Under the pieces are notes generated by a model that was not told the origin of the DNA, made no database searches, and saw nothing but the letters and a program-made list of their open reading frames with translations. DNA of 64,000 nt from Mycobacterium sp. KBS0706 (lineage in GTDB: Bacteria > Pseudomonadota > Alphaproteobacteria > DSM-16000 > Inquilinaceae), in the NCBI RefSeq assembly GCF_005938675.2, contig NZ_VCCH02000012.1, forward strand, positions 62,001 to 126,000. The letters run 5' to 3'. Below are positions 701 through 21,937 of this stretch, piece by piece. Position 1 is the first letter of the stretch; each line of letters opens with the position of its first letter. Made by a program: the position numbers and the translations under genes.

Positions 701-970
701 ATGTTCGAGTGGGACGAAGACAAGGCCGCAGCCAATCTCGCCAAGCACGGCGTGGCCTTCGAAGCCGTCAGCGACTTCGACTTCGCCACCGCGATCGAGA
801 CACTGGATGATCGGTTCGACTATCGCGAAAGCCGTTGGGTGGCGATCGGGTTTATCGGAACCGACCTGCACGTCCTGGTCTATACGCCGCGCGGCACCGA
901 CGTCCGTGTCATCAGCCTGCGCCGGGCTAATGCCCGGGAGAGGAAAGCCTATGAGCAAGCGAAAGCCTAA
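701..970 (+). CDS. brnT: BrnT family toxin
   Basis: BrnT is a type II toxin, a small RelE-like ribonuclease that blocks translation. This 89-residue protein has the family N-terminus (FEWDEDKAAANLAKHGVAF), a central acidic/aromatic segment and the C-terminal ISLRRANARERKAYE. The ATG at 701 matches the usual length; longer in-frame starts would include the operator. The antitoxin gene overlaps its 3' end by 20 bp, in the usual toxin-first order. Confidence 0.9.
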   Translation: MFEWDEDKAAANLAKHGVAFEAVSDFDFATAIETLDDRFDYRESRWVAIGFIGTDLHVLVYTPRGTDVRVISLRRANARERKAYEQAKA

Positions 971-1415
971 CCACGTCAGCCAGGAGGCCTGGGACGCCGT
1001 CGACTCCCCTCCCCTGTCCGACAAGATGCTGGCCCGCATGCGCCCGGCGACCGAAACACATCCTGGATTGGTCGCCGAACAGCGGCGCACTCGGGGGCCG
1101 CAGAAGACACCGACTAAGGAGCTCGTCTCGATCCGGCTGGATCGCGATCTTCTGACCCGGCTGCGCGCGCAGGGGGAAGGCTGGCAGCGGATGGCGAACG
1201 AGACACTACGCCGCGCGGTCGGCCTGACTGCCGCCGCTACCGGGGCCGCCGTAGTGCTGCGGTCTGCCGCCGGGAAGCACTCGGCCAAGGCTGTAGCCGG
1301 CAGCGCTCTGACGCAGAGCTCCGGGAAGAAGAGAGACGGCCGCCACCCGGCCAGCGACACCGCCAGAACCGGAGGGACTGCCAACACCATGACCGGCAAA
1401 ACGCGGAAGAAGTAG
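951..1415 (+). CDS. brnA: BrnA family antitoxin with long basic tail
   Basis: BrnA neutralises BrnT and binds the operon promoter. Residues about 50-95 match the BrnA antitoxin core: VSIRLDRDLLTRLRAQGEGW, then QRMANETLRRAVGL. The protein runs to 154 residues, with roughly 60 extra Ala/Gly/Lys-rich residues after the core. That tail contains SAKAVAGSALTQ and ends in lysines, closely resembling the end of the 47-residue protein encoded at 7970-8113. The ATG lies inside brnT in another frame, so translation is probably coupled. A terminator follows. Confidence 0.85.
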   Translation: MSKRKPNHVSQEAWDAVDSPPLSDKMLARMRPATETHPGLVAEQRRTRGPQKTPTKELVSIRLDRDLLTRLRAQGEGWQRMANETLRRAVGLTAAATGAAVVLRSAAGKHSAKAVAGSALTQSSGKKRDGRHPASDTARTGGTANTMTGKTRKK

Positions 1416-5706: not shown

Positions 5707-6279
5707 TCATGGTGCGACCTCGTCGAACAACCCGACCTGGTCGCCCCAGGCGGTCCACCCGGGGCGGTTGCTGCGCGAGAACAGTTCGAGGTACGGGCCG
5801 TCGAGCAGGAGTTCGAGCCGCTCCCGCATCTCGTCCGGCTTGCGGCTGTGCTCGCGGACCGGGGCGCTGATGACGTTGCGGATGGCTCGGTGGTACCGCT
5901 TGGGCTCTCCGATCGTGGCGATCAGGTAGGGATCGCAGGCATTCCGCTCGATGTAGCCGGGCCCGAAGGCCTCATGCTTGCCGGTGGGGCTGAGCTTCCG
6001 CCACGCCCCGCCGGACTTGTACGTGAAGCCCCAGGCGTTGACGACGTCGAAGGCCTGTTCGAGGAATGGCCACGTCGTCCACAGGTAGAGCACGCAGTCG
6101 CCGGCGGCGAGATCCCGCACCGGCATCGCCCTGATCTCGTCGATCGGCATGCAGCGATAGTGGCGAGTGGCGTTCTTCCCCTCGCCCTTGGCGCTGCGAT
6201 TCCGGAACAGCCAAGGGGGATCCGCGTAGATGACGCGGTATCCCATCGGCCTGATCTCGTCCCCCCAGAACCATCCCAT
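5707..6279 (-). CDS. MT-A70 family DNA adenine methyltransferase
   Basis: Predicted SAM-dependent N6-adenine methyltransferase. The 190 residues begin with YRVIYADPPW (catalytic DPPW at 20-23) and continue through HYRCMPIDEIRAMPV, LYLWTTWPFL and PVREHSRKPDEM, the standard order of phage MT-A70 proteins. The length is normal for a stand-alone enzyme with no recognition domain. The ATG at 6279 lies 7 bp after the stop of the MazG-TSCPD gene. It probably modifies phage DNA against restriction. The GcrA-like protein encoded nearby makes a regulatory use conceivable. Confidence 0.9.
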   Translation of the reverse strand: MGWFWGDEIRPMGYRVIYADPPWLFRNRSAKGEGKNATRHYRCMPIDEIRAMPVRDLAAGDCVLYLWTTWPFLEQAFDVVNAWGFTYKSGGAWRKLSPTGKHEAFGPGYIERNACDPYLIATIGEPKRYHRAIRNVISAPVREHSRKPDEMRERLELLLDGPYLELFSRSNRPGWTAWGDQVGLFDEVAP

Positions 6280-9215: not shown

Positions 9216-9430
9216 GGCCGCCGTCCGAACGCTATCCGGGATGCCGGACGCGGCGGCGCCGCGCTCCGCTGCAGCCGGCGGTCGCCTAGCATGGCCGCGG
9301 CGCAGCAGGCCAGGCCGAGCGCCAGGGCCGGTGCGCCGGCGATCCAGTCGCCGTGCAGCATCGGCTGTGCGCCGGTCGGCAGCAGCACCCCGGCCGCGCA
9401 GGCGGTGACGATGACGAACACGCGCATCAT
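9212..9430 (-). CDS. small phage membrane protein
   Basis: 72 residues with a hydrophobic N-terminal segment (FVIVTACAAGVLLPTG), a second hydrophobic stretch (ALALGLACCAAAMLG) and a basic proline-containing tail. It is probably an inner-membrane protein with two spans. The ATG at 9430 makes an ATGA overlap with the Cro-like gene; a second ATG follows at once. It and the 29-residue peptide form a membrane pair of unknown role in the early operon. Confidence 0.55.
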   Translation of the reverse strand: MMRVFVIVTACAAGVLLPTGAQPMLHGDWIAGAPALALGLACCAAAMLGDRRLQRSAAPPRPASRIAFGRRP

Positions 9431-9633
9431 GCTGCGGTCTCCCGAGCGGCATAGAAATCGTTGGCCGTGACCTCGCCGCCGGTCGCGTCCCGGATCTTCG
9501 CCATTTCGGGCGGTCTCGGGATCCGCTCTCCGCTCACCCAGCGGTGCACGGTCTTGCGGTCGCGGCCGATCTGCCGCGCGAACTCGGCCGGGCTGATGCC
9601 CCGCACCTGCAGATAGTCACGAAGGATGGTCAT
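9427..9633 (-). CDS. Cro-like helix-turn-helix repressor
   Basis: 68 residues. An XRE-type helix-turn-helix spans about 12-45: SPAEFARQIGRDRKTVHRW, then VSGERIPRPPEMAKI. It starts the leftward operon opposite the CI gene, with 94 bp and three operator-like sites between the two starts. By position it is the Cro-type antagonist of CI. Confidence 0.8.
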   Translation of the reverse strand: MTILRDYLQVRGISPAEFARQIGRDRKTVHRWVSGERIPRPPEMAKIRDATGGEVTANDFYAARETAA

Positions 9634-9643
9634 GGGCCCGAAC

Positions 9644-9720
9644 TGTGGCCATTTTAGACACAGAGGTCAAGCCGAATGTGGCCGAACTGATTACAGCGCA
9701 TCGGGACCAATTCGGCCACA
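9644..9720. promoter_or_regulatory. three CI/Cro operators between cro-like and cI-like genes
   Basis: Three 19-bp sites fit TGTGGC-N7-GCCACA. They are 9644-9662 (TGTGGC, GACACA), 9677-9695 (TGTGGC, ATTACA) and 9702-9720 (CGGGAC, GCCACA). Each keeps at least one near-perfect half. Centres are 33 and 25 bp apart. Matching sites at 10,470 and 10,505 support the assignment. Confidence 0.75.
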
Positions 9721-9727
9721 ATCAGAC

Positions 9728-10432
9728 ATGGCAAACCGAATCAAAGAGTTGCGCGAGGCTGCCGGCCTCTCTCTGGACGGGCTGGCCAAGCTCGTCGCCG
9801 TCGATCGGTCGACCATCTGGAAGCTGGAGACCGGCCGGCAGAAGCTGACGGTTGATTATCTCAAGGCCATCGCCGCTGCCCTGCGCGTCGACATCGCCGA
9901 TGTGGTCGAGTCGCGCGGCAGCGAGAAGGCCGCCGAGGTGTCGGGCCTCGCAGCGACCAGCAGCGTCGTCGAGATGCCGCGCGGGCTGGAGCTCATTCCG
10001 GTGGTCGGCGCGGTCCAGGCCGGCCACTGGGTTGAGGCGCTGGAGTTGCCCGAAGAGGAGTGGGAATGGATCTCGGCGCCTGTCGACCCGCGGCTGCGCC
10101 AGGTCAAGCGATTCGGGTTGCGGGTGAATGGCCGGTCGATGGACCTGGTCTATCCGGAAGGAACCATCCTCGTCTGCGCCAAGCTGCTGGATCTGGGCAT
10201 CGAACAGCAGCCTGGGCAACGCGTCATCTGCCTGCGCCGCAGCCGCGAAGGGCTAATGGAGGCGACGGTCAAGGAATACGTGGTCGACAACGGACGTCGC
10301 CTGCTGATGCCACGGTCGTCCGTGCCGGCCTATCAGCAGCCGGTAGAGCTACACGACCCCGGCCCGGACGACGCCAACGGCGACGTGCTCGTCTTCGCTC
10401 TCGTCCTCGGCAGCTACCGCTCTGAAATTTAA
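9728..10432 (+). CDS. CI-type repressor with S24 autocleavage domain
   Basis: Lysogeny repressor of 234 residues. Residues 3-58 are an XRE helix-turn-helix (GLSLDGLAKLVAVDRSTIWK). The C-terminal half is a LexA/CI S24 domain: cleavage site Ala98-Gly99, catalytic Ser137 in NGRSMD and Lys182 in ATVKEY. All three parts are present, so SOS-triggered self-cleavage and induction are expected. The ATG at 9728 lies 7 bp after operator 3, suggesting autoregulation. Operators also flank its 3' end. Confidence 0.92.
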   Translation: MANRIKELREAAGLSLDGLAKLVAVDRSTIWKLETGRQKLTVDYLKAIAAALRVDIADVVESRGSEKAAEVSGLAATSSVVEMPRGLELIPVVGAVQAGHWVEALELPEEEWEWISAPVDPRLRQVKRFGLRVNGRSMDLVYPEGTILVCAKLLDLGIEQQPGQRVICLRRSREGLMEATVKEYVVDNGRRLLMPRSSVPAYQQPVELHDPGPDDANGDVLVFALVLGSYRSEI

Positions 10433-10469
10433 GCGATTTGGCTACACTCGTTGCTTAGTGCATTCGTGA

Positions 10470-10523
10470 TGTAGCGGATCCAGCTACAATCTCGCTTGAC
10501 ACATCGTGGCCGTTTCAGCCACA
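10470..10523 (+). promoter_or_regulatory. rightward phage promoter with two CI-type operators
   Basis: Site 10,470-10,488 is a perfect TGTAGC-N7-GCTACA palindrome. Site 10,505-10,523 is CGTGGC-N7-GCCACA. Between them lies TTGACA (10,496-10,501), a consensus -35 box whose -10 region falls in the second operator, so bound CI would block it. Centres are 35 bp apart. This probably drives the rightward operon from 10,636. Confidence 0.65.
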
Positions 10524-10571
10524 GTCCCTCTTGCACGTCCGCATCGTGCATGAAACCTCCCTGTTCACTGG

Positions 10572-10601
10572 CCCGGGGTGACAGCACCCCGGGTCCCTTT
10601 T
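10572..10601 (+). terminator. strong hairpin terminator in the rightward leader
   Basis: CCCGGGGTG (10,572-10,580) pairs perfectly with CACCCCGGG (10,585-10,593) around a four-base loop, followed by TCCCTTTT. It lies between the rightward promoter and the first gene at 10,636, so read-through or antitermination would be needed to express the operon. Otherwise it ends a transcript from cI. Confidence 0.8.
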
Positions 10602-10635
10602 CGGGGAGGCGAGAGAGGGAGGCCCCGCGTGGGGT

Positions 10636-10776
10636 ATGTCGATGCCCGAGCTTCTTCCCGAACCCCTGATGATCGGCCTAGCCCTGATGGGCGCCTGCCT
10701 CGGCGTCTGGGCCATCAAGCTGCTGTTCGTCTCGATCTACACCGCGCCATACGACCCGACCGAGGAGCGCGGCTGA
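10636..10776 (+). CDS. 46-residue phage membrane protein
   Basis: A short ORF: MSMPELLPEPLMIG, then a hydrophobic segment (LALMGACLGVWAIKLLFVSI) and a polar tail ending EERG. One membrane span is likely, role unknown. It is the first gene after the leader terminator and stops 2 bp before the next ATG, which favours a real coupled gene. Confidence 0.5.
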   Translation: MSMPELLPEPLMIGLALMGACLGVWAIKLLFVSIYTAPYDPTEERG

Positions 10777-10778
10777 CC

Positions 10779-11012
10779 ATGGCTGTCCACCTCTCGGAGA
10801 GCGCCAAGGCCGCTTGGAAGTGGCTGAAGGATCACAACGGCGACGGCGGCTTCGACAAGAACGGCGTCCTGCTGGCCGGCGGCGAGCAGGCCCCGTTCAT
10901 GCGCAGCACCTGGAACACCCTGCGGGACGGCGGTGCCGTCGAGTTCTACCGCAACGGCCAGCGCGGCCGCCCGCGCGTTCGGATCAACCAGTTTCCCGGC
11001 TTCGACAGCTAG
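10779..11012 (+). CDS. small phage DNA-binding-like protein
   Basis: 77 residues. It begins MAVHLSESAKAAWKWLKDHN and ends in a basic segment (NGQRGRPRVRINQF). The order helix, glycine-rich turn, helix (MRSTWNTLRDGG) and two strands suggests a small winged helix, an inference from pattern only. It lies just before the phage tRNA gene. Confidence 0.6.
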   Translation: MAVHLSESAKAAWKWLKDHNGDGGFDKNGVLLAGGEQAPFMRSTWNTLRDGGAVEFYRNGQRGRPRVRINQFPGFDS

Positions 11013-11020
11013 CCCCTTCC

Positions 11021-11095
11021 AGCAGGGTAGATCAGCGGTAGATCGCCGGGCTCATAACCCGGAGGCCGCGGGTTCAAATCCCGCCCCTGCAACCA
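11021..11095 (+). tRNA. initiator-type tRNA-Met (CAT), phage-encoded
   Basis: A full cloverleaf, 75 nt with an encoded CCA. The anticodon CAT is at 11,053-11,055. It has the bacterial initiator features: position 1 does not pair with 72 (A and A), the D stem has A11 with T24 (GATC/GATC), and the anticodon stem has three G-C pairs in a row (GGG, loop CTCATAA, CCC). The T arm (GCGGG/CCCGC) is perfect, and acceptor pairs 2-71 to 7-66 all match. The folding was done by hand. It lies between protein genes of the rightward operon, so it is part of the element. Confidence 0.93.
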
Positions 11096-11322
11096 GATCC
11101 GGCGCAAGGCGCCGGAGGCGTCGGCAGTAGGCCGGAGAGATGCCCGGCCGAATACGGCGCCACCCCCGCCCCCTTACCCGGCCTCCACCGGGTGGGGGTC
11201 GAGGCGTCAGAGGGGCCGGCGGCCGTGCCGCCATGCGGTACGGGCCAATGGCTTACCGGGACCGACACATCAGGTCTACGCCGCCGGCCCCTCGTCCACT
11301 CCGCACAGGGAGACCGGCCGCC

Positions 11323-11649
11323 ATGTCCGCCGCCACCATCGCCACCATTGCCGACCTGGAGCGCGCCTTCGACGGCCGCATCCCGGCCGGGCTCCTGGAG
11401 CTCGCCAAGCGGGCGCCGCAGCGGGTCGCCCGCATCTGCCGCACCCGGGTCCGCGCCAAGCTGAAGGCCGGCGCGGTCCGCTCGGCCATGGTCGAGGCGA
11501 TCGTCGAGATCTTCGAGGCCCAGGGCGGCGAGGTGTCCGAGGCGGACCTGCTGTCCCGCGGCTTCACCCGCAAGGACCTGCACGACCACGGCCACGCCGC
11601 CAAGGCCGCCGCCCGCCCCCGCCTGCGCCGCGACCGGAGCGCCGCGTGA
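11323..11649 (+). CDS. hypothetical phage protein
   Basis: 108 residues, no family recognised. Helical and basic, with ADLERAFDGRIPAGLLEL, then RVRAKLKAGAVRSAMVEAIV and a segment EADLLSRGFTRKDL that could be a DNA-binding helix pair. The ATG at 11,323 follows AGGGAGA, so the longer in-frame extension from 11,140 is not used. The 227 bp between the tRNA and this gene hold no gene I can support, only a short hairpin (ACCCGG/CCGGGT near 11,175). Confidence 0.6.
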   Translation: MSAATIATIADLERAFDGRIPAGLLELAKRAPQRVARICRTRVRAKLKAGAVRSAMVEAIVEIFEAQGGEVSEADLLSRGFTRKDLHDHGHAAKAAARPRLRRDRSAA

Positions 11650-15086: not shown

Positions 15087-15937
15087 TCGCCGAGATCCTG
15101 GCCGACTGCCGCGCCATCGTCGCGCAGCACCACCAGCAGACCCGCACCGATCTACTCCGCGCTATCGACGCCGCCCTGGCCGCGCCGGCGCCGCGCTGGA
15201 CCGAGGCGGCGGTCGAGCGGATCGCCCTCGCCACCGAGATTCCCGTCGGCACCGTCGCCCGGGTGCTGACGCGCGCCGAGGCCGAGGCCTCGGTCGGGCC
15301 GGACAGCTTCGACCTGCTCGCCTTCCTGGCCGAGCTCATGGCCTGGCAGGCCGAGACCTTCGGCCCGCGCCAGACCGTCGCCGGCGTGGTCGACCACATC
15401 CGCAGGGAACTGATCGAGGTCGAGGCCAACCCGGCCGATCCGATGGAGCCGATCGACCTGCTCAACCTCGCGGTCAGCCTGCTGCGCCTCGCCGGCGCCA
15501 CGCCGGACCAGATCTGCCAGCTCTGGCGCCTGAAGTTCGGCATGCTCCAGGCCCGCACCTGGCCGGATTGGCGCACCGCCGACTCCGACCGCGCGATCGA
15601 GCACGACCGCTCGGCCGAGCCGCCGACTCAACCCGAGGGCCTGGCCGATTTCGGCCTGCTGGTCAGCTTCCCGGACCAGTCGCCCAGCTTCGTCCACGGC
15701 TTCGAGGCCGGGATGATCTGGATGGACCTGCGCGATTCTGCAGACCCGTTCGACCTGACGATGCACAGCGCGAACCGGGTGCTCGCCACCAGGATCGCCT
15801 CCCACCACGGCTGGAACGTGACCTTCCGGGCCACCGAGTTCGAGGAGTGGACCACCGCCTCCTTCGCCCGCGGGTCCCGCCCCGCCCTGACCTCGATCGA
15901 CGGCGGCCGTGCCGCCACACCGCAGGAGCCCCGCTGA
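15083..15937 (+). CDS. dATP/dGTP pyrophosphohydrolase-like (DUF550) fusion
   Basis: 284 residues from a GTG start overlapping the upstream TGA. Residues about 84-178 match the phage DUF550 / MazG-like family, which hydrolyses dATP or dGTP: WQAETFG, acid clusters ELIE (109-112) and EPID (122-125), and the family ending WPDWRTADSDRAIEHDR. The N-terminal 75 residues are unassigned. The C-terminal region (FPDQSPSFVHGFEAGMIWM, HGWNVTF) is a further module often seen in phage proteins. Related MazZ enzymes serve phages with 2-aminoadenine DNA, but no PurZ is visible here. Confidence 0.75.
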   Translation: MIAEILADCRAIVAQHHQQTRTDLLRAIDAALAAPAPRWTEAAVERIALATEIPVGTVARVLTRAEAEASVGPDSFDLLAFLAELMAWQAETFGPRQTVAGVVDHIRRELIEVEANPADPMEPIDLLNLAVSLLRLAGATPDQICQLWRLKFGMLQARTWPDWRTADSDRAIEHDRSAEPPTQPEGLADFGLLVSFPDQSPSFVHGFEAGMIWMDLRDSADPFDLTMHSANRVLATRIASHHGWNVTFRATEFEEWTTASFARGSRPALTSIDGGRAATPQEPR

Positions 15938-16806
15938 TGCCCACGCCTGATCTCTGCATCTACCACGGCAACTGCGCCGACGGGTTTACCGCCGCCTGGG
16001 TGGTCTGGCGATGCTTCGGCAACGCGGTCGAATTCCTGCCCGGCATCTATGGCGCCGAGCCGCCGGACGTCACGGGTCGGCACGTCGTGCTGGTCGATTT
16101 CTCCTACAAGCGGCCGGTGCTGGCGCGCATGGCGGCGCAGGCCGCCAGCCTGCTGGTGCTCGACCATCACAAGACGGCTGCCGCGGATCTCGACGGCTTC
16201 GCGGCCGAGCATTCGAACGCGACCGTCGTCTTCGACATGAACCGGTCGGGGGCAAGGCTCGCCTGGGAGCATTTCCACGGCACCACACCGCCCACCCTGG
16301 TTCGCTATGTCGAGGATCGCGACCTGTGGCGGTTCCTGCTGCCGGGAAGCCGAGAGGTCGCGGCCTTCGTCTTCTCCTACGGCTACAGCTTCAGGAACTG
16401 GGACTATCTCCACGCCCTGATCGGCCGCGGCGAGCCGGGCGACACGATGGGGCTGCAGCAGGCGATCGACGCCGGCGGCGCGATCGAGCGCAAGCACCAC
16501 AAGGACATCGCCGAGCTGCTGGCCATCGCGACGCGACGCATGGTGATCGGCGGCCACAGCGTGCCGGTGGCGAACCTGCCCTACACCATGGCGTCCGACG
16601 CCGGCCAGGTCCTGGCCAAGGGCGAACCCTTCGGCGCCTGCTACTTCGACCGCGCCGACGCCAGGGTGTTCTCCCTGCGGTCGACGCCAGAGGGTGTCGA
16701 CGTCTCGGAGATCGCGGCGCGCTATGGCGGCGGCGGTCACCGCAACGCCGCCGGCTTCCAGATGCCGCTCGGCTGGGACGGCGACGAGGGCCGGTCCGAT
16801 GGCTGA
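15937..16806 (+). CDS. DHH family phosphoesterase
   Basis: 289 residues with the DHH superfamily layout: YHGNCADGFTAAW (motif I), LVDFS, then LVLDHHKTA (DHH at about 76-78), and the DHHA1-like glycine motif RYGGGGHRNAAGF near the C-terminus. These enzymes cleave phosphodiester bonds in short oligonucleotides, cyclic dinucleotides or single-stranded DNA; the substrate here is not known. It could recycle nucleotides or remove a signalling dinucleotide. It starts at a TGATG junction. Confidence 0.88.
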   Translation: MPTPDLCIYHGNCADGFTAAWVVWRCFGNAVEFLPGIYGAEPPDVTGRHVVLVDFSYKRPVLARMAAQAASLLVLDHHKTAAADLDGFAAEHSNATVVFDMNRSGARLAWEHFHGTTPPTLVRYVEDRDLWRFLLPGSREVAAFVFSYGYSFRNWDYLHALIGRGEPGDTMGLQQAIDAGGAIERKHHKDIAELLAIATRRMVIGGHSVPVANLPYTMASDAGQVLAKGEPFGACYFDRADARVFSLRSTPEGVDVSEIAARYGGGGHRNAAGFQMPLGWDGDEGRSDG

Positions 16807-20381: not shown

Positions 20382-21665
20382 ATGGCGTCCATCAACAAGC
20401 GCAGCTGGGCCACGCGGTCCGGCGAATCCCGCTCCGGCTACGAGGTCGAGTGGAAGGACGCTTCCGGCCGCCGCCGGCGCAAGGCCTTCAGCGGGCCCAA
20501 GGCGAAGAAGCGGGCCGAGGCGCACAAGACCAAGGTCGAAGCGATCGCGCAGGGGCTGATCGCCGCCCCGGTCGAGCCGGCCGCCGGCGACGCCCCGCCC
20601 GTCGTCGTCACCGTGAAGATCGCGGCCGACAACTGGATCACCGACGTCAAGGCGCGCGGCCGCGAGACCTCGACGATCGACAAGTACGAGGATCACCGGG
20701 ACCTGCATATCGTCCAGGCCGAGATCGTCCGCCGCGACATGCCGGGGACCTGGCGCTTCGGCGATATCCCGCTCGCAGAGCTGACGCCGCCGGACTGCGA
20801 GGCGCTGAAGAAGGTGCTGCTCGCCAAGCTGACATCGCGGAACGCCGCGAAGGTCATGACCAGCGTGCGCATGCTGCTCAGCCAGGCCGTGCGCGACGGC
20901 CTTTGCCCGGTCAACGTCGGGAGGGAGACCAGGGTCGAGATCATCGACCGGGGCGAGAGCGACGTCGAGATCCCGCCGAAGGATGAGATCAAGGCCCTGC
21001 TGTCGGAATCGGCCACCGAAGCGCCGGCGCCACCCACCTTCACCGAGGTCTGGGTCCATCTCGGCGTCTTCGCCGGGCTTCGGCCGTCGGAGCTGCGCGG
21101 ACTGGCGGTCGAAGACCTGGTGCTGGCCGGCGCCGACACCGGGTTCTGGGTCCGCCGCAAGGCGGATGAGTACGGCATCCTCGGCACCGTCAAGACGAAG
21201 CAGTCGCGCCGCTTCATCCGGATCGGCAAGGCCTCGGCCGCGCTGCTGCGCCGGTGGCTGCTGGCGGTGCCGCGCAGCTCGGCGCTGCCCGATCCGGCCC
21301 GGAAGGGCGAGACGATCCATCTGCTGCTGCCGACGTCGATCGGCACGGTGCAGAGCCTGGCGAATGTCTACAACCGGGTGTGGGTCCCGCTGTGCCAGGA
21401 CGCCGGCCTGACCGTCCCGGCCGAGCGCGAGGGTCCAGAGACGGGCGAGACGATCGTCCGCCAGGTCCCGCGCTACTCCCTCAACTGCCTCCGGCACATC
21501 CACGCATCGCTTCTGATCGACCAAGGCATGACGCCGAAGCAGGTCCAGATGCGCATGGGTCACAGCTCGATCAAGGTGACCTATGACATCTACGGCAAGC
21601 TGTTCGACAAGCGCGACGCCGACCGCGAGATCAGCGCCACCCTCGAGCGCGACCTGCTGTCCTGA
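20382..21665 (+). CDS. phage tyrosine recombinase (integrase)
   Basis: 427 residues. It integrates the element by strand exchange through a 3'-phosphotyrosine. An AP2-like arm-binding segment (GYEVEWKDASGRRRRKAF) is followed by a SAM-like core-binding domain (about 80-175) and the catalytic domain: Arg234 (GLRPSELRG), Arg371 (CLRHIHASLL), His394 (MGHSS) and Tyr404 (YDIYGKLF). The residue usually His in HxLR is Asn368, a tolerated change in some members. It points towards the tRNA-Phe gene 196 bp away. Confidence 0.93.
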   Translation: MASINKRSWATRSGESRSGYEVEWKDASGRRRRKAFSGPKAKKRAEAHKTKVEAIAQGLIAAPVEPAAGDAPPVVVTVKIAADNWITDVKARGRETSTIDKYEDHRDLHIVQAEIVRRDMPGTWRFGDIPLAELTPPDCEALKKVLLAKLTSRNAAKVMTSVRMLLSQAVRDGLCPVNVGRETRVEIIDRGESDVEIPPKDEIKALLSESATEAPAPPTFTEVWVHLGVFAGLRPSELRGLAVEDLVLAGADTGFWVRRKADEYGILGTVKTKQSRRFIRIGKASAALLRRWLLAVPRSSALPDPARKGETIHLLLPTSIGTVQSLANVYNRVWVPLCQDAGLTVPAEREGPETGETIVRQVPRYSLNCLRHIHASLLIDQGMTPKQVQMRMGHSSIKVTYDIYGKLFDKRDADREISATLERDLLS

Positions 21666-21734: not shown

Positions 21735-21861
21735 GAGGGTGCAAAATAACGCGAAAAGGGGGAATTTGGAGAACGGCGCGGAAAGCGCGGACCGTCTCCG
21801 CAACCCGGCCCGGAAGGCCAGGAAAGCCGCCGGATCCAGCGTTCTCTAGGGGAAGAGAGAA

Positions 21862-21937
21862 TGGTGCCCAGGGACGGAGTCGAACCGCCGACACGGGGAT
21901 TTTCAATCCCCTGCTCTACCAACTGAGCTACCTGGGC
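21862..21937 (-). tRNA. tRNA-Phe (GAA), probable attachment site
   Basis: Cloverleaf with anticodon GAA in the loop TTGAAAA, acceptor stem GCCCAGG/CCTGGGC, T loop TTCGACT and an encoded CCA (TGG on the + strand at 21,862-21,864). Its 3' end faces the integrase, the usual layout when an element integrates into the 3' half of a tRNA gene. The second att copy would be beyond the left window edge. Confidence 0.96.

Follow-up and report, generated by a model that had tools for sequence, protein, structure and literature searches.

Initiator tRNAs carried by phages are of a kind already known, and the closest described systems are temperate. Sinorhizobium prophages carry tRNA-fMet (PMC12429752, PMC10460002), and the phiLM21-like prophages of Sinorhizobium meliloti (PMC12429752) and prophage NV1.1.1 (PMC10460002) resemble the locus described here, each being a temperate alphaproteobacterial prophage in a tRNA gene with one initiator. 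The phiLM21 copy (L472:2995-3071) differs in that it is 77 nt long, has G1·A72 and U29-A41, and lies near the terminase, outside the repressor-side operon. The initiator of Mesorhizobium phage vB_MseS-P1 (PP232116, L471:3001-3075) is closer in form; it is 75 nt long with A1·A72, its acceptor stem (AGCAGGG/CCCTGCA) is identical to that of our copy, and it also lies in the immunity region, near the repressor, Cro, CII and GcrA genes. However, it has G11-C24 and U29-A41 and belongs to the Cro/CII operon. The nearest tRNA among the matches listed is on IMG/VR contig 3300036760_000158 (L140:5616-5690), identical at 70 of 75 positions over the whole tRNA and likewise with A1·A72; its five differences comprise two stem pairs with compensatory changes and a single base in a loop. 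This copy adjoins a tRNA-His, and its contig has no detectable protein homology to the prophage. Finally, mycobacteriophages (Myrna group), Caulobacter jumbo phages, Pseudomonas phage D3 and Gordonia phage GodonK share phage-borne CAU tRNAs with a 1:72 mismatch, but several of these lie in large tRNA arrays, their stems are different, and D3 has C33 instead of U33.

We compared these systems with a tRNA gene found in the window, by which we mean the whole stretch of 64,000 nucleotides analyzed. The original prediction recognized this gene correctly as a prophage initiator tRNA and held that phage initiators are rarely reported. The latter is wrong, and the kind is commoner than claimed: INPHARED holds 361 phage records with a similar sequence, each of two strict initiator patterns has at least 120 matches in IMG/VR (some of these may stem from host DNA or from tRNA arrays of the host), the GenBank label 'tRNA-fMet' is already present in phage CcrSC, and the Sinorhizobium prophages have been published. 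Most of the phages whose tRNAs were read out have the initiator mismatch or a weak pair at 1:72. What is added here to the known phage initiators is a comparison of native and phage anticodon stems.

Some viral copies are unusual or unlabeled. GenBank is without annotation for the initiators of P1 and of Erythrobacter phages ZS04 and R6L (L473:2500-2576; L481:2500-2576), and in P1 the tRNA overlaps an ORF that is labeled a transcriptional repressor. The D3 tRNA (L477:1000-1075) and that of Janthinobacterium phage Donnerlittchen (L480:1000-1076) are initiator-like with the loop CCCATAA, in which C33 replaces the near-universal U33. Caulobacter phage CcrSwift has an 85-nt CAU tRNA with a long variable region (L476:1463-1547), annotated as tRNA-Met. 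A contig with phage genes from a genome of the same family as the host carries a short-D-loop initiator (L498:5387-5461). This tRNA has C1·C72, and its loop (CTCATAT) contains U38; DarB-like and anti-repressor genes lie nearby, and it is overlapped by a long ORF.

Table 1. Features of the window around the prophage tRNA-fMet
Feature	Position	Strand	Remarks
BrnT toxin (701-970) and BrnA antitoxin (951-1415)	701-1415	+	PF04365, PF14384
Cro-like HTH regulator	9427-9633	-	
CI-like repressor (HTH and peptidase S24)	9728-10432	+	immunity region adjoining tRNA-fMet
46-aa ORF	10636-10776	+	first small gene of the rightward operon past the repressor
77-aa ORF	10779-11012	+	no PHROG match; stop codon 8 nt upstream of tRNA-fMet
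Prophage-encoded initiator tRNA-fMet (CAU)	11021-11095	+	75 nt, encoded CCA, short D-loop; ARAGORN, Rfam, covariance models, fold
Spacer 3' of tRNA-fMet, strongly structured	11096-11322	+	227 nt; MFE -137.8 kcal/mol
108-aa ORF downstream of tRNA-fMet	11323-11649	+	no function assigned
Tyrosine integrase	20382-21665	+	
attR, 59-bp repeat within host tRNA-Phe	21852-21910	.	attL at C24:31569-31627, beyond the window
Host tRNA-Phe, integration site	21862-21937	-	ARAGORN and att repeat

Sequence, structure and class of the tRNA

ARAGORN calls a tRNA-Met(CAT) at exactly 11021-11095 on the forward strand, with the sequence AGCAGGGTAGATCAGCGGTAGATCGCCGGGCTCATAACCCGGAGGCCGCGGGTTCAAATCCCGCCCCTGCAACCA. 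The Rfam tRNA model scores this interval at 68.8 bits (E 6.6e-13), and in that alignment the sole non-standard pair is 1:72. The minimum free-energy fold is a cloverleaf of -31.6 kcal/mol, equaled by 3 of 200 shuffles. At the acceptor end, the A1·A72 mismatch is followed by G2-C71 and C3-G70, and A73 precedes the CCA; thus, position 1:72 has no Watson–Crick pair, as expected of an initiator. The D stem contains A11-U24, which agrees with the R11-Y24 rule for initiators. The anticodon stem has three successive G-C pairs (G29-C41, G30-C40 and G31-C39), which close the loop CTCATAA. Unpaired 1:72 is the primary and A11-U24 the secondary determinant of formylation (PMC4611024), and initiation in Escherichia coli requires the 3GC anticodon stem (PMC10486304).

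To assign the class, we compared three covariance models, each trained on bacterial tRNAs. The prophage tRNA scores 93.6 bits with the initiator model, 79.0 bits with the elongator Met model and 49.6 bits with the Ile2 model, the last value being indicative only, as the predicted D-arm of that model is imperfect. Held-out native initiators score 106-109 with the initiator model and 68-71 with the elongator model, and held-out elongators score 67-73 and 100-103, respectively, so that both classes of control are told apart correctly, with a margin of roughly 30 bits or more. The elongator Met and Ile2 training tRNAs start with G1 paired at 72, which the prophage tRNA does not. An elongator tRNA-Met or a lysidine tRNA-Ile2 would share the CAU anticodon with an initiator, but this identity is contradicted by the 1:72 mismatch, A11-U24, the 3GC stem and the ranking of the models, on which we rejected it as extremely improbable. 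The predicted initiator identity with all of its hallmarks (A1·A72, A11-U24, 3GC and CAT) is therefore borne out by Rfam, the covariance models and the controls, and the comparison of models that had been proposed as a check is won by the initiator.

The mismatch is also maintained in other phages. Among the matches listed, 97 distinct short-D-loop viral initiators have 1:72 unpaired in 78 cases, weakly paired in 18 and as G-C or C-G in only one, and their remaining acceptor pairs are 95-99% paired. Because the patterns used to pick the viral sets prescribe the anticodon stem, A11 and T24, only the evidence from 1:72, the rest of the acceptor stem and the T stem is independent of that selection. 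Since the initiator-specific mismatch is kept within acceptor stems that are otherwise paired, these sequences argue for function. As raw counts that ignore relatedness, A1·A72 occurs in 14 of the 97 distinct viral initiators among the matches listed and in 3 of 103 distinct bacterial ones, and weak 1:72 pairs are likewise commoner in the viral initiators.

Prophage and operon

The tRNA-fMet is carried by a complete lambda-like prophage of about 52.3 kb integrated into tRNA-Phe. A 59-bp direct repeat bounds the prophage, with one copy on contig C24 and the other in the window, inside tRNA-Phe and beside the tyrosine integrase (Table 1). The tRNA-fMet sits 10.8 kb inside this repeat, and the attachment tRNA is a different gene. 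It is thus neither a host gene nor an att-site remnant, since it lies inside the complete prophage and the att repeat falls in tRNA-Phe; the remnant reading was rejected, and the description of the tRNA as phage-encoded stands. The prophage has structural and lysis genes (large terminase, portal, head protease, capsid, tape measure and endolysin) as well as regulatory and replication genes (CI-like and Cro-like regulators, CII, primase and methyltransferases). The prophage terminase shares 42% identity with its counterpart in Sinorhizobium phage phi2LM21. A DUF2303 search of IMG/VR for relatives with the tRNA in synteny returned only four relatives, none of which carries a tRNA.

A GcrA-like cell-cycle regulator (PF07750; 7359-7871) and a DNA methyltransferase-like protein (phrog_359; 5707-6279) are encoded in the prophage, and the immunity region of Mesorhizobium phage P1 likewise holds GcrA and an IME4-type methylase gene. 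The DHH phosphoesterase at 15937-16806 is about 52% identical to that of the Caulobacter phiCbK-group jumbo phages, which themselves carry initiator tRNAs.

Within the prophage, the tRNA belongs to the repressor-side rightward operon and starts 8 nt past the stop of the 77-aa ORF. Owing to this short gap, the tRNA is presumably co-transcribed with that ORF and then processed at its 5' end. A scan of 9600-11400 found no σ70-type promoter, a model that does not cover alphaproteobacterial promoters, and a search for an intrinsic terminator near the tRNA found none. Matches around the tRNA to Rfam families other than tRNA were all below threshold.

Anticodon stems of native and phage initiators

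Native alphaproteobacterial tRNA-fMet (L011, L013 and L014) shares the initiator features and the loop CTCATAA with the prophage copy, but it is 77 nt long, has C1·A72 and A29-U41, and follows the rRNA operon (shown for the same-family relative G007). The A29-U41 pair is present in all 21 distinct native sequences sampled (33/33 loci), whereas the prophage copy has G29-C41. We compared 13 alphaproteobacterial phage and prophage initiator types, which include the window copy and are not independent lineages. The 29-41 pair is changed in ten of these (seven U-A, two G-C and one C-G, all paired), and 31-39 is flipped in two more; the three native pairs are kept only in Komagataeibacter phiKX1. 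Of the pairs that never vary in natives, 29-41 changes most often, and 28-42 is also often changed (6/13). G30-C40 is invariant across the 13 types although its neighbors change, as would be expected were it constrained by use in the P site. The loop is CTCATAA in all 13 types except the G014 prophage (CTCATAT).

Two explanations of this difference can be weighed. In the first, the initiator was captured long ago from a non-alphaproteobacterial bacterium and passed between phages, so that the short D-loop and G29-C41 are inherited features that owe nothing to selection for evasion. Initiators with a short D-loop and G29-C41 occur natively in Bacteroidota, Chloroflexota and Bacillota; by contrast, a length of 77 nt is found in 31 of the 33 alphaproteobacterial initiators sampled. 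In the short-D-loop set, the best bacterial match reaches 60/71 compared with 66/71 for a viral copy. However, a single tRNA is too short for a firm phylogeny, and U29-A41 occurs in most other sampled alphaproteobacterial phages and in no native initiator that was examined. We regard foreign ancestry as plausible, at somewhat less than an even chance.

In the second, alphaproteobacterial phages repeatedly alter the base of the initiator's conserved anticodon stem (29-41, sometimes 31-39), whereas its pairing and G30-C40 are kept and the loop nearly always is; this would yield initiators that are active and escape RNases. Host anticodon-arm nucleases such as VapC would read A29-U41, and the phage tRNA would be a resistant substitute. 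The replacement of a pair invariant in the sampled natives by other paired bases in most phage types is consistent with this, VapC cuts initiator tRNA-fMet between A38 and C39 (PMC4105405), and the host assembly encodes 17 PIN-domain stretches. Evasion of anticodon nucleases has already been proposed for phage tRNAs by means of loop changes (PMC10264068); stem switching, if true, would be evasion via the stem. However, the loop in the window copy is identical to the native one and C39 is unaltered, so the loop change of that proposal is absent and the stem is altered instead. VapC does cut E. coli-type tRNA-fMet, whose pair is G29-C41, and no host nuclease of such specificity is known here. 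The frequent change of 28-42 also speaks against a switch aimed at 29-41, foreign ancestry predicts an equal pattern, and the 13 types lack independence. Repeated rewriting for RNase escape is a doubtful reading of these sequences, and a nuclease-resistant substitute is unlikely. An origin outside the host lineage has no lower a chance than evasion, because other phyla have native short-D-loop G29-C41 initiators and the phage types do not represent independent lineages. The comparison of native and phage stems predicts that host PIN toxins, or other nucleases acting on the anticodon arm, would cleave the two tRNAs to different extents.

Proposed role

Why phages should carry tRNAs has long been asked. 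Compensation for elongation codons cannot explain an initiator, which points to initiation capacity or to a defense that targets tRNA. We consider it probable that the gene is a working bacterial-type initiator tRNA, borne by a temperate phage, that supplements the initiator pool of the host or takes its place. From sequence and structure, we infer transcription, processing, charging, formylation, P-site use and a benefit to the phage. The tRNA would be transcribed as part of the rightward operon on the repressor side, and host tRNA-processing enzymes would excise it from the transcript. MetRS would charge it by way of CAU and A73, Met-tRNA formyltransferase would formylate it because 1:72 is unpaired, and IF2 would deliver it to the P site via G30-C40 and G31-C39. 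It may then add to the host initiator pool or substitute when the host tRNA is attacked, and supplementing the pool or replacing a damaged host tRNA is the most likely benefit. Prophage tRNAs can also be cargo that brings no benefit.

The host's own initiator

The host assembly contains no second initiator tRNA, and the prophage copy is the only one present. The assembly is also without 16S rRNA; in G007, the native tRNA-fMet lies directly after 23S-5S, and in four of five congeners no initiator exceeds the threshold, although none carries the prophage copy. The missing gene is thus most readily explained by a gap in the assembly, and we rejected the notion that the prophage copy replaced the host gene as the only tRNA-fMet of the cell, which has a negligible chance of being right.

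Neighboring features

The original prediction related the tRNA to a nearby BrnT toxin. The toxin is real (PF04365), but it is not nearby: BrnT and BrnA belong to the prophage but lie about 10 kb from the tRNA in another operon, beyond divergent operons. A link between them was rejected, as there is no evidence for it at this distance. BrnT is not known as an initiator-tRNA-specific nuclease.

The spacer downstream of the tRNA (Table 1) begins with a hairpin 2 nt past the CCA and continues in long stems. Its fold is more stable than that of shuffled sequences with z of about -5 (-5.03 and -4.97), and the lowest value among 43 other windows is -3.0. An in-frame extension through it has no coding-like GC3, and the spacer is probably non-coding. 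The modeled structure makes a processing or regulatory RNA possible. A short piece of the spacer (11137-11183) matches relatives, where it lies in an unrelated, apparently coding stretch.
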